Part shown: piece by piece, positions 2,957 to 24,722 of the stretch | Position numbering within the stretch: the stretch's first letter is position 1 | How the letters are laid out: every line of letters starts with the position of its first letter | Source: Lachnospiraceae bacterium | GTDB lineage: Bacteria; Bacillota; Clostridia; Lachnospirales; Lachnospiraceae | DNA length: 33,138 nucleotides | Assembly: GCA_017440575.1 (NCBI GenBank) | Contig: JAFSGY010000003.1 | Location: 1-33,138 of the forward strand | Reading direction: 5' to 3' | Notes under the pieces: model-generated | The model's input: the letters and a program-made list of their open reading frames with translations, nothing else | Told to the model about the DNA's origin: nothing | The model's database searches: none | Made by a program: the position numbers and the translations under genes

Positions 2957-3083
2957 AAAGCCTTAAAAATGAGGAGTGCCCCGATACCTTTCGGCATCGA
3001 GGCTATTATGAAAAAATTTATCTATGTGTAATGAAAACATTACGTTGTTCCCTTAACTATGAGTAAATATTACTATAAAAAAA

Positions 3084-4577: not shown

Positions 4578-5813
4578 TGTGTTTGTATGGGGAGAAGACT
4601 GTAGTAAAGTACCACGAACGATTGCATCTTTTCCATATTTTTGGCGTATAGAATCAATTGCCTGATCGAGCTTCTTATTGCGTTCATTTTGAGGCTTGGT
4701 TGCCTGATAAGAAAAGAGGTCAAGCTGAACGGGAGCAGACTCTTCCTTGAGCTTGGTAGCACGCACTCCCAGCAGTCTGACAGGACTTCCATCCCATAAC
4801 TCCTGCAAGAGCGCCATACTGGATTCATAGATGGTGCTAGTTGTATTATTCGGCGCGGGAAGTGCCATCTGGTGAGAACAGGAATGGAAATCAGCATATT
4901 TAATTTCAACAGTAATTGTACCAGCGTTGGACTGGATTGACCGAAGTCGCTTGGAAACAGATTCGGAAAGACTAAGGATGATGGGTTTCATTTCTTCTAT
5001 ATTTACTGCATCCTTTGACATGGTCGTAGAATTCCCGATTCCCTTAGCGGGAGCAGGGGCTGGACATATGCCGGAGGAATCGATTCCGTTTGCATATTCC
5101 CAAAGGAGTTGTCCGTGACTCTTCAAATGATATAGGAGCAGATTCTTATCGCAGTGTGCCAGCTCTCCAATGGTAGTGATGCCTAGCTTTCTTAGCGTTT
5201 CCTGACTGGAGCGTCCACACATGAGCAGGGAGGAAATGGGAAGTGGCCACATTTTTGTTTCTATTTCATGTGCAAAAAGGGTATGAACCAAATCAGGTTT
5301 CTTAAAGTCGGATGCCATTTTAGCAAGAACCTTTCGGTTGCTAATGCCGATATTAACGGTGAAACCGAAGGTATCACGCACTCCATTTTTGATTATGTTT
5401 GCAGCCTCGACAGGTGATGAGAAATCATTTTGAATAGGAGTAAAGTCCATATAACATTCATCAATACTAACCTGTTCAATCATGGGGCAGTAAGAGCTTA
5501 GATAGCTCATTAGCCTATGACTGTGTTCGCTGTATGAAGAGTGACTTGGCTGTACAATTGTAAGGTTAGGACATTTTTTTATGGCAGAAGCAATCGGTTC
5601 TGCGGTGTTAATGCCATATTTTTTGGCGGGGATGGATTTTGCAAGTACGATACCATGGCGTGTCGAAGAATCTCCACCTATAATTGAAGGAATGTCACGC
5701 AGATCCACATAGGTATTCAGCGTACCGTCCAGCTGAGCTTGCCTTTTTAAATCAATGGCTGTCCAACTTAAAAAGGCAGAATTAACATCAATATGAAAGA
5801 AAATAGAATCCAT
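4566..5813 (-). CDS. dinB: Y-family DNA polymerase (DinB / Pol IV-like)
   Basis: Error-prone translesion polymerase. Catalytic carboxylates are visible as Asp9 (FFHIDVNSAF) and Asp118-Glu119 (SIDECYMDF). GGDSSTRHGIVLAKS followed by AKKYGI is the fingers region in the variant common among Firmicute DinB/UmuC-like proteins. QLDLF at residues 363-367 is a classic beta-clamp-binding motif, placed about 48 residues before the C-terminus. The protein has 415 residues. The chosen start at 5813 is preceded by AAGGAGGTG; a start 7 codons upstream would bury that site. A LexA-like box overlaps the predicted transcription start, so SOS control is likely. Whether it is true Pol IV or a UmuC-like paralogue is not settled. 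Confidence 0.9.
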   Translation of the reverse strand: MDSIFFHIDVNSAFLSWTAIDLKRQAQLDGTLNTYVDLRDIPSIIGGDSSTRHGIVLAKSIPAKKYGINTAEPIASAIKKCPNLTIVQPSHSSYSEHSHRLMSYLSSYCPMIEQVSIDECYMDFTPIQNDFSSPVEAANIIKNGVRDTFGFTVNIGISNRKVLAKMASDFKKPDLVHTLFAHEIETKMWPLPISSLLMCGRSSQETLRKLGITTIGELAHCDKNLLLYHLKSHGQLLWEYANGIDSSGICPAPAPAKGIGNSTTMSKDAVNIEEMKPIILSLSESVSKRLRSIQSNAGTITVEIKYADFHSCSHQMALPAPNNTTSTIYESSMALLQELWDGSPVRLLGVRATKLKEESAPVQLDLFSYQATKPQNERNKKLDQAIDSIRQKYGKDAIVRGTLLQSSPHTNTKKP

Positions 5814-10275: not shown

Positions 10276-10391
10276 CTCTTATTCAGAGTGGTGGAGGTAC
10301 AAAGGACCTACGAAGCCACGGCAACCCCCCGTAAAGAGGAAGGTGCCAACCTGAGCGAGTCATGCTAGAAGTATAGTTCGAACAATAAGAG
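10276..10391 (+). promoter_or_regulatory. SAM-I (S-box) riboswitch aptamer
   Basis: Binds S-adenosylmethionine and shuts off metK when SAM is plentiful. The P1 helix is CTCTTATT (10276-10283) with AATAAGAG (10384-10391). Conserved S-box core elements are present: GGTGGAGG, GAAGCCACGGCAACC, then AGGTGCCAACCTGAGCGAG, in the expected order. It lies between a strong promoter and metK, a classic S-box target, and is followed by a terminator that can be rearranged (see 10420-10452). Confidence 0.93.
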
Positions 10392-16715: not shown

Positions 16716-16760
16716 CTAACTGTTCGGTATCATATAACTATGAAGGAACTGAATAGTTAT
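16716..16760 (+). repeat. Decayed relative of the palindromic element in the pfkA leader
   Basis: It begins CTAACTGTTCGGTA, matching the left end of the 134-bp element at 23477 (GTAACTGTTCAGTA) at 12 of 14 positions. It ends with a 27-bp palindromic unit (16734-16760, TAACTATGAAGG ... TGAATAGTTA) that matches the 27-bp right end of that element (23584-23610) at 23 positions. The 80-90 bp interior is missing. No clear flanking duplication. GGAATAGTTAT repeats once more just downstream. Confidence 0.7.
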
Positions 16761-16805: not shown

Positions 16806-17780
16806 ATGGCCAAAGAGATAAAGACAATTGCTGTTTTAACAAGTGGTGGAGATGCACCTGGTATGAACGCTGCGATTCGTGCAGTCGTTAGAAAAGCTCT
16901 CTCCAACGGAGTTAGTGTGAAGGGAATCAAAAGAGGTTATGCAGGACTTCTTAATGAAGAAATAGAAGATATGGATGCTCCAAGTGTTGCAGATATTATT
17001 CAGACAGGTGGTACGATTCTTGGTACAGCACGTTGTCTGGAAATGAAGGAGCCAGAGGTACAAGCACATGCAGCTGATCTTTGTCGTAAGCATGGCATTG
17101 ATGGACTTGTTGTAATCGGTGGCGACGGTTCTTACCGTGGTGCACAGGCTCTTGCAAGAAATGGTATTAATACGGTTGGTATTCCGGGAACTATCGACCT
17201 TGATATTGCATGTACAGAGTACACGATAGGATTCGATACAGCAATCAATACAGCGATGGAAGCTATCGATAAGGTAAGAGATACTTCGTCTTCCCATGAA
17301 AGATGTTCTATCATTGAGGTAATGGGAAGAGATGCAGGATATATCGCACTGTGGACTGGTGTTGCCACTGGTGCAGAGGATATTCTTCTGCCAGAGAAAT
17401 ACGACTATAATGAGCAGGAATTGATTAACAATATCATTGCTAGCAGAAAACGCGGTAAGACACATCACATTATCGTTAATGCTGAGGGTATTGGACATTC
17501 AACATCTATGGCTAAGAGAATTGAAGCAGCTACCGGTATTGAGACTAGAGCAACTATTCTTGGTTATTTGCAGAGAGGTGGTCGTCCAACATGTAAGGAT
17601 CGTTTCTATGCATCAATCATGGGAGCTTATGCAGCAGATATTCTCTGTGCAGGTAAGTCTAACAGAGTAGTAGCATACAAGCATGGTGAGTTTGTTGATT
17701 ATGATATCGAAGAGGCTTTAAATATGTCAAAGGGTATTGATGAATACCAGTATGACATTTGTAAGAAGCTGTCAAGATAA
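16806..17780 (+). CDS. pfkA: ATP-dependent 6-phosphofructokinase
   Basis: Phosphorylates fructose 6-phosphate to fructose 1,6-bisphosphate in glycolysis. SGGDAPGMNAAIRA binds ATP. GGDGS (105-109) has Gly108 where PPi-dependent enzymes carry Asp, indicating ATP use. The catalytic Asp131 is in PGTIDLDI; the usual Asn between the two aspartates is Leu132 here. GRDAGYIAL and GYLQRGGRPTCKDR complete the family pattern. 324 residues. The start at 16806 follows AGGAGG (16793-16798) and gives the canonical N-terminus; a frame from 16713 would translate the repeat-bearing leader. The leader carries a decayed palindromic element. Confidence 0.95.
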   Translation: MAKEIKTIAVLTSGGDAPGMNAAIRAVVRKALSNGVSVKGIKRGYAGLLNEEIEDMDAPSVADIIQTGGTILGTARCLEMKEPEVQAHAADLCRKHGIDGLVVIGGDGSYRGAQALARNGINTVGIPGTIDLDIACTEYTIGFDTAINTAMEAIDKVRDTSSSHERCSIIEVMGRDAGYIALWTGVATGAEDILLPEKYDYNEQELINNIIASRKRGKTHHIIVNAEGIGHSTSMAKRIEAATGIETRATILGYLQRGGRPTCKDRFYASIMGAYAADILCAGKSNRVVAYKHGEFVDYDIEEALNMSKGIDEYQYDICKKLSR

Positions 17781-22464: not shown

Positions 22465-23259
22465 ATGAAAATAGGATTTATTGGTTTAGGAAACATGGCA
22501 ACCGCAATGATTGGCGGTATTTTAGGGAAGGGACTGTATACAAAGGCAGATATTATTGGTTCTGATAAGATGCAGGCAACAGCAGATAATGCAAAAGAAA
22601 AGTTTGGAATCACAACCTATGGGGATAACAAAGAGGTAGTAAAAAATGCAGATATTATTGTCTTTGCGGTAAAGCCAATCTTTTTACCAGAGGTTATTGC
22701 AGAGATTAAGGATGAGATGACAATGGACAAGCTTATTATTTCCATTGTTGCAGGTAAGAGTATCGCATGGATTGAGGAGGCATTTGATAAGCAGATTCGT
22801 CTGGTGCGTTGTATGCCGAATACACCAGCCTTTGTGGGAGAGGGATGTACAGCAATTTGTCTGAACTCCTCTGCAACCAAGGAGGATGAGAAGCTTGCTC
22901 TCGACATTATGAATAGCTTTGGTAAGGCAAGTGTTGTAATGGAGCATCTTATGGATGCTGTTGTGGGTGTCAGCGGAAGTTCACCAGCATATGTTTTTAT
23001 GTTCATTGAGGCAATGGCAGATGCGGCAGTTCTTGCCGGAATGCCAAGAGCGCAGGCGTATGAATTTGCAGCTCAGTCTGTTCTTGGAAGTGCTAAGATG
23101 GTGCTGGAAACGGGAAAGCATCCGGCTGATTTGAAGGATATGGTATGCTCACCGGGAGGAACTACCATCGAAGCTGTTAAGGTATTAGAGGAAAAGGGCT
23201 TTCGAGCAGCAGTTATAGATGCAATTGGAGCCTGTGTAGAGAAATCGAAAAATTTATAA
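22465..23259 (+). CDS. proC: Pyrroline-5-carboxylate reductase
   Basis: Last step of proline synthesis: reduces 1-pyrroline-5-carboxylate with NAD(P)H. Rossmann motif GFIGLGNMATAMIGG at the N-terminus, FAVKP, RCMPNTPAFVGEG, VSGSSPAYVFMFIEA and the C-terminal signature around DMVCSPGGTTIEAVKVLEE. 264 residues, normal. AAAAGGAGAG precedes the ATG. It ends the ktrB-to-proC run; the possible terminator downstream (23319-23353) doubles as part of the next promoter. Confidence 0.96.
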   Translation: MKIGFIGLGNMATAMIGGILGKGLYTKADIIGSDKMQATADNAKEKFGITTYGDNKEVVKNADIIVFAVKPIFLPEVIAEIKDEMTMDKLIISIVAGKSIAWIEEAFDKQIRLVRCMPNTPAFVGEGCTAICLNSSATKEDEKLALDIMNSFGKASVVMEHLMDAVVGVSGSSPAYVFMFIEAMADAAVLAGMPRAQAYEFAAQSVLGSAKMVLETGKHPADLKDMVCSPGGTTIEAVKVLEEKGFRAAVIDAIGACVEKSKNL

Positions 23260-23361: not shown

Positions 23362-23476
23362 ATGGATTTGTAATGAGTGTTAACAATTACGTAATATTTG
23401 TTATTAGGAATGTATAATTTATGTAAATAATAGTAACAATGAAGAATAATTTCCGAAGTTTTTTATGGAAATCAAG

Positions 23477-23610
23477 GTAACTGTTCAGTAGGAATACGCA
23501 TTTACTGCGGATTCCGTAAGAAAATGTAGTTTGTATAAGCAAAAATCCTATTTGCGAAGCAAATTTAAGATGGATTTTTGCATGTAACTATGAAGGTAAT
23601 GAATAGTTAC
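23477..23610 (+). mobile_element. 134-bp MITE-like element with 8-bp target duplication
   Basis: The ends GTAACTGTTC (23477-23486) and GAATAGTTAC (23601-23610) are inverted repeats (9 of 10). Perfect direct repeats AAATCAAG lie at 23469-23476 and 23611-23618. The interior folds into three hairpins: 23491-23515 (GGAAT/ATTCC ends), 23539-23581 (GCAAAAATCC/GGATTTTTGC enclosing TTTGCGAAGCAAA), and the 27-bp palindromic right end (23584-23610). It has no coding capacity. The right duplication overlaps the AAGGAG ribosome-binding site of the following gene. GTAA ends and 8-bp duplications are known from IS66-family elements, which might mobilise it; that link is inference. Confidence 0.8.
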
Positions 23611-23627
23611 AAATCAAGGAGATTAGT

Positions 23628-24722
23628 ATGAAAGCGAATTGCCAAAGGTGGAGAAGTCTTTTTTCCGCAGTAACTTTTTCCGTAGTGTTGTGTGCCACAT
23701 CGATGAGTGTATTAGCAGATGATACAAAAGCAGAAGTAAGGGAGATACCATTAAGTGCAGGTGCAGCGCTTCTGCTAGATATGGATGTCGCAACAACTGA
23801 TGAAGAAATTGTTGAAATTGTTAAGAACAATACAAAAGCCAATGTATCCACCAAAACGATAACCAAGCAGGAGGAATCCACTCTTGTTATGGCGAAGGTG
23901 AATGAGTATGTGAATATTCGTAAGGAAGCTAATCAGGATTCAGAAAAGCTTGGTGTGTTATACAAGGATTGTGGCGGTCATGTTGTAGAACGTCAGGGAG
24001 AATGGTCGAAGATTCAGTCAGGTGATGTTACGGGCTGGGTTAAGGATCAGTACCTGTATTTTGGTCATGAGGCTGAGCAGCTTGCAGAAGAGGTAGGAAT
24101 GCTGGTAGCATATGCACAGACAGATACCTTGCGAGTACGCAAGGAAGCAAGTCTGGAAGGCGGAGTGCTTGGATTGCTTTCAAAGGGTGAAGCACTAGAA
24201 GCTATTAAAGAGCAGGACGACTGGGTAGAAGTAAGCTATGAGGGTACAACAGGATACGTTTCCGCAGAGTATGTTAAGGTTGAGTTTGATATCGATGATG
24301 CGGAATCCATGGAAGAGATTCGTGCAAGAGAAAAGGCAGAAGCAGAGGCGAAAAGACATCAGCAGAAAGCAGCTGTATTAGCCACAGCTTCAGAACTGCA
24401 GATTCTTGCTGCGCTTATTCAGTGTGAGGCTGGTGGAGAACCATATGAAGGTCAGGTTGCAGTTGGTTCAGTTGTAATGAACCGTGTCAGATGTGCGGCT
24501 TATCCTAATACCGTTACAGAGGTTATCTATGCATCTGGACAATTTACACCGGCTGTTACAGGTAAGCTTGACAGAGTGGTATTAAGTGGAAATATTAAGC
24601 CATCCTGTCTTCAGGCAGCTCAGGAAGTATTAAATGGTGTTACAAATGTAGGAGATGCATTGCATTTCAGACGAGTAGGTAATAAGCAGGGAATTATTAT
24701 TGGAAATCATGTATTCTGGTAA
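23628..24722 (+). CDS. Secreted SH3-domain cell wall hydrolase (SleB-type)
   Basis: Probable peptidoglycan hydrolase or lytic transglycosylase related to the spore-cortex enzyme SleB. 364 residues: signal peptide (1 to about 31, cleavage near SVLADD), a threonine/lysine-rich linker, two bacterial SH3 domains (about 86-145, VNEYVNIRKEANQ; about 158-222, TDTLRVRKEASLE), a Glu/Ala/Lys helical linker (about 228-255), and a Hydrolase_2 domain (about 260-364) with LIQCEAGGEPYEGQVAVGSVVMNRV, in which Glu267 is the likely catalytic acid. Despite SleB kinship it may act on the vegetative wall. The leader carries a 134-bp insertion immediately before the ribosome-binding site, and a terminator follows. 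Confidence 0.92.
   Translation: MKANCQRWRSLFSAVTFSVVLCATSMSVLADDTKAEVREIPLSAGAALLLDMDVATTDEEIVEIVKNNTKANVSTKTITKQEESTLVMAKVNEYVNIRKEANQDSEKLGVLYKDCGGHVVERQGEWSKIQSGDVTGWVKDQYLYFGHEAEQLAEEVGMLVAYAQTDTLRVRKEASLEGGVLGLLSKGEALEAIKEQDDWVEVSYEGTTGYVSAEYVKVEFDIDDAESMEEIRAREKAEAEAKRHQQKAAVLATASELQILAALIQCEAGGEPYEGQVAVGSVVMNRVRCAAYPNTVTEVIYASGQFTPAVTGKLDRVVLSGNIKPSCLQAAQEVLNGVTNVGDALHFRRVGNKQGIIIGNHVFW

Follow-up and report, generated by a model that had tools for sequence, protein, structure and literature searches.

A putative IS66-type MITE with covarying hairpins in the leader of a cell-wall hydrolase gene of a Lachnospiraceae bacterium

The element and the genes around it

The window, meaning the whole stretch of 33,138 nucleotides that was analysed, belongs to a Lachnospiraceae genome assembly of 2.8 Mb in 122 contigs that is 78% complete. 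A gene at 22465-23259 with a pyrroline-5-carboxylate reductase domain is followed by a 134-bp element, which ends 17 bases upstream of the ATG (23628) of a cell-wall hydrolase gene. The features are as follows.

23469..23476, no strand: target-site duplication, left copy, 8 bp, AAATCAAG (from the sequence)
23477..23610, plus strand: putative IS66-type MITE, 134 bp, sense to the hydrolase gene with its left end upstream; 144 bits with covariance model R1, which was built partly from this copy
23477..23488, plus strand: left terminal inverted repeat, GTAACTGTTCAG (from the sequence; compared with IS66 ends)
23491..23515 (approximate), plus strand: hairpin 1, with conserved apical GCATTTACTGC and variable complementary arms (alignment and pairing analysis)
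23539..23581 (approximate), plus strand: hairpin 2, a 10-bp outer stem and an inner stem around CGAAG (alignment and pairing analysis)
23584..23610 (approximate), plus strand: hairpin 3, 27 bp, in which the right end pairs with the inner arm GTAACTAT; the same unit is found solo elsewhere
23599..23610, minus strand: right terminal inverted repeat, ATGAATAGTTAC, reading inward (reverse complement) as GTAACTATTCAT
23611..23618, no strand: target-site duplication, right copy, 8 bp, AAATCAAG, a perfect match to the left copy (from the sequence)
23616..23621, plus strand: ribosome-binding site AAGGAG, half within the duplication (by eye)
23628..24722, plus strand: cell-wall hydrolase of 364 aa with Pfam Hydrolase_2 and SH3_3 (reading frame and domain search)
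16716..16760, plus strand: probable internally deleted relic of the same MITE family, left end and hairpin 3 (R1 26.9 bits, E 5.8e-4)

An earlier note on this DNA had described a non-coding element of 134 bp with three hairpins, inverted ends and perfect 8-bp flanks, and base-by-base reading agrees: 9 of the 10 outer bases of the end repeats match, the hairpins lie at the positions listed, and no reading frame of at least 80 aa falls within the 134 bp, the minus-strand frame at 23588-23881 overlapping the right end. The same note held that the ribosome-binding site was kept and partly supplied by the downstream duplication copy, which the sequence confirms; that copy of AAATCAAG contributes the AAG of AAGGAG, and six bases separate AAGGAG from the ATG. 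The whole window was scanned for perfect direct repeats of 8 bp around a stretch of 60-300 bp whose arms agree at 9 of 10 bases or better; the arrangement occurs in this single place and in 0 of 100 first-order Markov resamples, and an origin by chance was rejected on these grounds. A known Rfam RNA was likewise rejected as the identity of the element, since no Rfam covariance model matched the window copy or four other copies (L154, L056, L040, L001). Elsewhere in the window, a SAM riboswitch (RF00162, 74 bits) lies at 10276-10391, just upstream of a reading frame listed from 10395. The relic at 16716-16760 is also in a gene leader, about 45 bases upstream of the likely ATG at 16806, and the window may therefore hold two insertions of the MITE family in leaders.

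Copies of the family and their target sites

Searched at the DNA level, the window's own genome gave 40 scored matches, several of them partial and many full length with other flanks, so that the copies with different 8-bp flanks that the earlier note had named as a check are present; R1, a covariance model made from 33 copies, found 34 matches in the same genome. Across 60 genomes including this one, the DNA search found matches in 29, all within one genus. R1 matched 31 of the 38 genomes of that genus, own included, with at least 80 to 88 matches in each of four of them, and 55 in a family-wide sample of 299 that again includes the own genome. The MITE family is not confined to one genus. 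It was not found in the openly licensed PubMed Central literature, as far as the texts were available in part, which is weak evidence of novelty.

The flanking repeat has a length of 8 bp in a set of 48 copies from the own genome, relatives in the genus and locus L154 (47 of 56 rows kept by length and end scores, plus L154): mean identity is 0.79 at 8 bp as against 0.30-0.35 at 4-7 and 9-12 bp. At least 7 of the 8 positions agree in 35 of the 48, and in 11 of 2256 mispaired flanks. When one copy was taken from each of 29 other genera, with end positions adjusted by as many as 6 bases for better end pairing and a GT start, irrespective of the duplication, 23 of 29 had a duplication of at least 7/8. 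The larger set, for which 60 places were chosen among the best-scoring R1 matches listed, comprised 162 model matches, reduced to 157 after removal of repeats and including one of only 85 bp; the duplication agrees at 7 or 8 of 8 positions in 119 of these and falls below 7/8 in the other 38. Purines occupy position 1 of the duplication in 100 of the 119 and pyrimidines position 8 in 66, so the target preference is not symmetric. Three copies from other genera (L226, L232, L233) have an inner arm that is a complete third copy of the end repeat, which gives a long end hairpin.

Leaders of the hydrolase gene, up to 230 bp each and one of them cut by a contig end, were compared in 30 cases including the own genome; the named relatives that carry the gene are Lachnospiraceae, and L061, which shares its leader with L127/L245 (G020), was treated with them as one genome and counted once. 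The leader in G023, whose hydrolase is 86% identical to that of the window, has a single AAATCATG and no element; GGAAATCATGGAGATTAGTATG stands there in place of the window's AAATCAAG-element-AAATCAAGGAGATTAGTATG, and this leader thus provides the empty site in a relative that the earlier note had proposed to look for. Full elements occur in two of the 30 leaders, that of the window and that of G010 (L154), at different positions. The L154 element differs in its stem sequences but not in the plan of its parts, its duplication is 7/8, and by eye the leader of L152 resembles its empty site. The G020 leader holds a 26-bp solo hairpin. Inspection by eye of leaders L126, L127, L141, L147, L151 and L154 gave the element in G000 (the window's genome) and G010, the solo hairpin in G020, and imperfect GTAA..TTAC palindromes elsewhere. 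The hydrolase leader looks as if insertions had landed in it more than once.

Two further copies, on contig 14, have no counterpart at the syntenic place in G023 or G020. For the copy at 42321 the flank has diverged in the relatives, with no clean single target copy; for the other there is a partial match to one target copy at the syntenic place. The reading of the element as mobile, put forward in the earlier note, is borne out by the dispersed copies with different 8-bp flanks together with the empty site in a relative.

Fold, orientation and the solo hairpin

The fold was assessed in two separately aligned sets. In A1, a sequence alignment of 33 of the 48 copies on which the end stem, hairpin 1 and a two-part hairpin 2 were drawn by hand, 94.0% of 1216 cells are paired and 19 of 37 pairs show double-sided changes; none of 500 shuffles was as high on the paired share or on double-sided changes, slid controls pair at 26-42%, and 34 of the 500 shuffles had at least as many further pair types, bearing in mind that related sequences can beat shuffles even without structure. 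The rival pairing, in which the inner arm and the right end form hairpin 3, reaches 94.4% with double-sided changes in 19 of 33 pairs, its further pair types being reached by 228 of 500 shuffles. The hairpin-3 form thus pairs as well as the end-stem form, and the right end can pair with either partner. In A4, whose 26 copies come from other genera (24 of the 29 described above, with L307 and L310 added), a fold predicted afresh has 24 pairs, 13 of them with double-sided changes, and contains the end stem, hairpin 1 and, for hairpin 2, the inner stem without the outer one. Hairpin 1 could be read by its loop pattern in 149 of 162 rows, four of which are visibly misread, and has 43 distinct arm pairs. 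On these alignments the interior hairpins are conserved by compensatory changes, beyond what is seen in an ordinary MITE.

Why the fold is kept can be argued at the level of DNA or of RNA, and the two causes are about equally likely. A DNA-level cause, in which extruded hairpins would aid transposition or template switching would rewrite both arms, is a serious possibility that stops short of being probable. It agrees with stem changes that are nearly all double-sided, with nine alternative hairpin-1 arm pairs that are perfectly Watson-Crick over the 8 positions compared, and with an end hairpin that has dispersed by itself. G-U pairs are rare as well, making up 1 of 787 ungapped cells in hairpins 1 and 2 of A1 and 23 of 396 in the end stem; such scarcity is unexpected if RNA pairing alone were selected, and leaves room for a cause in the DNA. 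Some common forms of hairpin 1 have fixed mismatches, however, such as a GA/GA internal loop, and these persist through whole subfamilies when rewriting of the arms should remove them. The orientation of the copies is also left unexplained.

That orientation is one of the points in favour of selection on RNA. On this reading, which can be entertained tentatively, copies in leaders and between operon genes would serve as mobile structured parts of the mRNA and might, for instance, protect, insulate or regulate the transcripts that contain them. Among the 157 copies, those between co-directional genes are sense in 80 cases and antisense in 26 (P 1.4e-7), or 66:19 (P 3e-7) after copies with a homologous neighbour on either side are merged; genes were called by a simple longest-ORF rule, by which start distances are rough. 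Only one of the 157 lies inside a reading frame of at least 100 aa; with a limit of 80 aa, the figures are 2 of 47 in one subset and 3 of 42 in another, L203 being among the latter. Covarying stems and conserved apical loops in both aligned sets are also as selection on RNA would predict. Against it stand the near absence of G-U from hairpins 1 and 2 of A1, tempered by 14 of 344 positions over the 43 distinct hairpin-1 arm pairs, mostly in single copies, and the uneven behaviour of the subsets: 27:5 in the subset of 47 loci, but 16:9 (P 0.23) in the subset of 42 alone, which includes L203 with wrong coordinates. A matrix of target sites by itself expects a sense:antisense ratio of 0.93 to 1.65, varying with the copies used to build it, and the sense excess has P 0.001 against a null of 1.5:1 and P 0.06 against 2:1. 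Target choice may explain part of the sense bias, and probably does not explain all of it.

The 27-bp right hairpin has a distribution of its own. With up to 3 mismatches it occurs at 58 places in the own genome, full copies included, and its reversed control at 0. Sites classed as lacking hairpin 2 number 35, by a simple test that misplaces a few partial or full copies, and 12 of them have an 8-bp repeat of at least 7/8. At the one solo site that was resolved, G020 is empty and has no full element. A deletion between the left end and the inner arm, which repeat each other in the same direction, would leave exactly the solo unit with the original duplication, and the solo hairpins elsewhere would then have arisen in a manner comparable to solo LTRs; direct transposition of a 27-bp unit may also account for the solo form. 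Two copies in the own genome, L155 and L082 (G000 C27:2827 and C74:13981), seem to keep the hairpin-1 sequence and the end hairpin without hairpin 2, a form that suggests stepwise internal deletion.

IS66 ends, a candidate mobiliser and the meaning of the family

The ends of the family share a 12-bp core, GTAACT(A/G)TTCAG, which is carried by IS66 transposons. No match to the IS66 transposase family PF03050 was found in the own genome at its 78% completeness; PF03050 proteins are present in 18 of the 38 genomes of the genus. Of 30 IS66 loci read in the genus (L089-L118), many of which may not reach an end, L104 alone has the exact core. Other IS66 lineages of the genus have other ends, for example GTAAGC-type in L101, and a few weak end pairs were seen in genus loci, among them GTAACAGTTCAG around part of L106 and the GTAAGC-type pair in L101, neither with a duplication. 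One end-reading pass covered a single strand, and its minus-strand rows are uninformative; the clear cases are L104, L102/L179 and those from later protein searches.

The TnpC fragment of L104 (in G034, also of the genus) is separated by 6 bases from a downstream CTGAATAGTTAC, and CTGAATAGTTAC follows TnpC reading frames in L104, L119, L248, L251 and L252; in L120 the frame is followed by CTGAACAGATAC, one base off, and L249 and L250 have exact GTAACTATTCAG ends. The last 68 residues of the L104 TnpC, used as a query, found relatives in 3 of 299 family genomes: G153, where a broken frame ends in GTACTGAATAGTTAC, G075, which ends in CTGAACAGATAC, and G114 (L124), with an exact GTAACTGTTCAG about 50 bases beyond the TnpC fragment. 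The G075 element encodes a 487-aa protein (PF03050, 5.5e-34) between GTAACTGTTCAGAACCCCC and GTATCTGTTCAGAACCCCC, without a flanking duplication, and this protein as a query was found in 4 of 397 genomes. The IS66 copy at L122 has both ends and, by eye, no duplication; the left end of the window element equals its GTAACTGTTCAG, the right end being one base off the core. On one contig of G005 (L179), also in the genus, a PF03050 protein (1.8e-11) is flanked by GTTACTATTCAC at 3040 and by its inverted form at 5239-5250, and a GTTAC-type copy of the MITE is present as well; the IS66 element runs to the contig end, so that any duplication lies out of view. The L179 ends fit a second subfamily of the MITE with ends GTTACTGTTCA(C/G). 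IS66 elements with GTAACTATTCAG or GTTACTATTCAC ends are thus known in the genus from G034 and G005. A phage collection searched with the TnpC fragment gave no match.

Outside the family, an element annotated as IS66 on the Geobacillus kaustophilus plasmid pHTA426 has the ends GTAACTATTCAGCC and GTATCTATTCAGCC, with cores GTAACTATTCAG and GTATCTATTCAG, and a perfect 8-bp duplication, AACTCGTC. The part of PMC8024623 available tabulates one IS66 copy, of the ISBst12 subgroup, for pHTA426 in this strain. The names conflict: in the L313 record the IS66 element is ISGka4-like, but the same part of PMC8024623 gives the name ISGka4 to an ISLre2 element. Repeats of 8 bp are in print for IS66 (excerpts of PMC3281130 and PMC11946415), and the excerpt of PMC11946415 has IS66 repeats start with GTAAGCG; the window element starts with GTAAC and has only GTAA in common with that sequence. 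The annotated Geobacillus IS66 also starts with GTAAC, so GTAAGCG is not valid for the ISBst12 subgroup and was not used as defining. Like the window element, the pHTA426 element combines an end that has the family core (here GTAACTATTCAG) with a second end that departs from it by one base, and its 8-bp duplication is perfect; it differs in carrying a 1.46-kb transposase gene, where the window element has no gene and three covarying hairpins.

The link to IS66 drawn in the earlier note therefore holds, through TnpC genes in relatives that are followed by the family end and through a Geobacillus IS66 with matching ends and an 8-bp duplication; judged from sequence, it is near certain that the window element is a mobile IS66-type MITE. 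That the element is moved by a non-IS66 DDE transposase producing 8-bp duplications is improbable: the own assembly has no IS66 transposase match and most IS66 loci seen in the genus lack the MITE end, but exact ends lie next to IS66 proteins in several genomes of the family and also in the annotated Geobacillus element. A reading without insertion, in which the hydrolase gene has kept an ancestral regulatory leader, can practically be dismissed: palindromes or insertions do occur in some relatives' leaders, but the full element is in only the two leaders of 30, at different places and with different stems, and G023 shows the empty site.

Very probably, then, a non-autonomous mini-transposon of the IS66 family (ISBst12-like) inserted here once, after the lineage had split from that of G023. 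An IS66 TnpC transposase would act in trans on the GTAACT(A/G)TTCAG ends, and the 134-bp unit would enter a staggered 8-bp target, mostly in intergenic gaps. Lying sense in the leader, the element would be transcribed with the hydrolase mRNA and the transcript would fold as three hairpins, or in a closed form with the left and right ends paired; translation would be kept because the duplicated target leaves AAGGAG intact, and the structured leader might alter expression of the hydrolase, as the earlier note suggested.

Several known systems are similar in part. MITEAba12 of Acinetobacter is short and non-coding, is credited to a resident IS with matching ends and has AT-rich targets, but measures 111-114 bp, makes 9-bp duplications, is tied to ISAba12 and has weak predicted structure (excerpt of PMC6382973). 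The bcr1 and other stem-loop repeat families also have a predicted common secondary structure, with about 31 to 167 bp among the rows listed, and are from other genera among those rows (part of PMC2267715). REP palindromes resemble the solo 27-bp hairpin as short palindromes of 20-40 bp in many copies, but carry GTAG or CGTC tags in the available part of PMC3733652; the solo hairpin has neither tag, ends in GTAAC...GTTAC and often has the 8-bp duplication.

What goes beyond an ordinary MITE is the compensatory conservation of the hairpins and the excess of sense orientation, the latter partly explicable by target choice. The earlier note could not see the covariation, the breadth of the family, the sense excess or the solo right hairpin. 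A family-wide mobile RNA, in which an IS66-driven transposon carries a selected, covarying mRNA structure as its cargo rather than a gene, would seed sense-oriented modules into Lachnospiraceae leaders and operon gaps, change the expression of the genes it joins and shrink to a 27-bp hairpin that keeps the duplication; this wider reading is on balance doubtful.

The hydrolase leader is a natural experiment with four states: empty, with the window element, with an independently gained element of different stems, and with a solo hairpin. These four states make the action of the hairpins on mRNA, and the cause of the pairing, directly testable. Lachnospiraceae are major gut bacteria. In their genomes the MITE family, as yet without a name, would commonly supply leaders and operon gaps with structured sequence.
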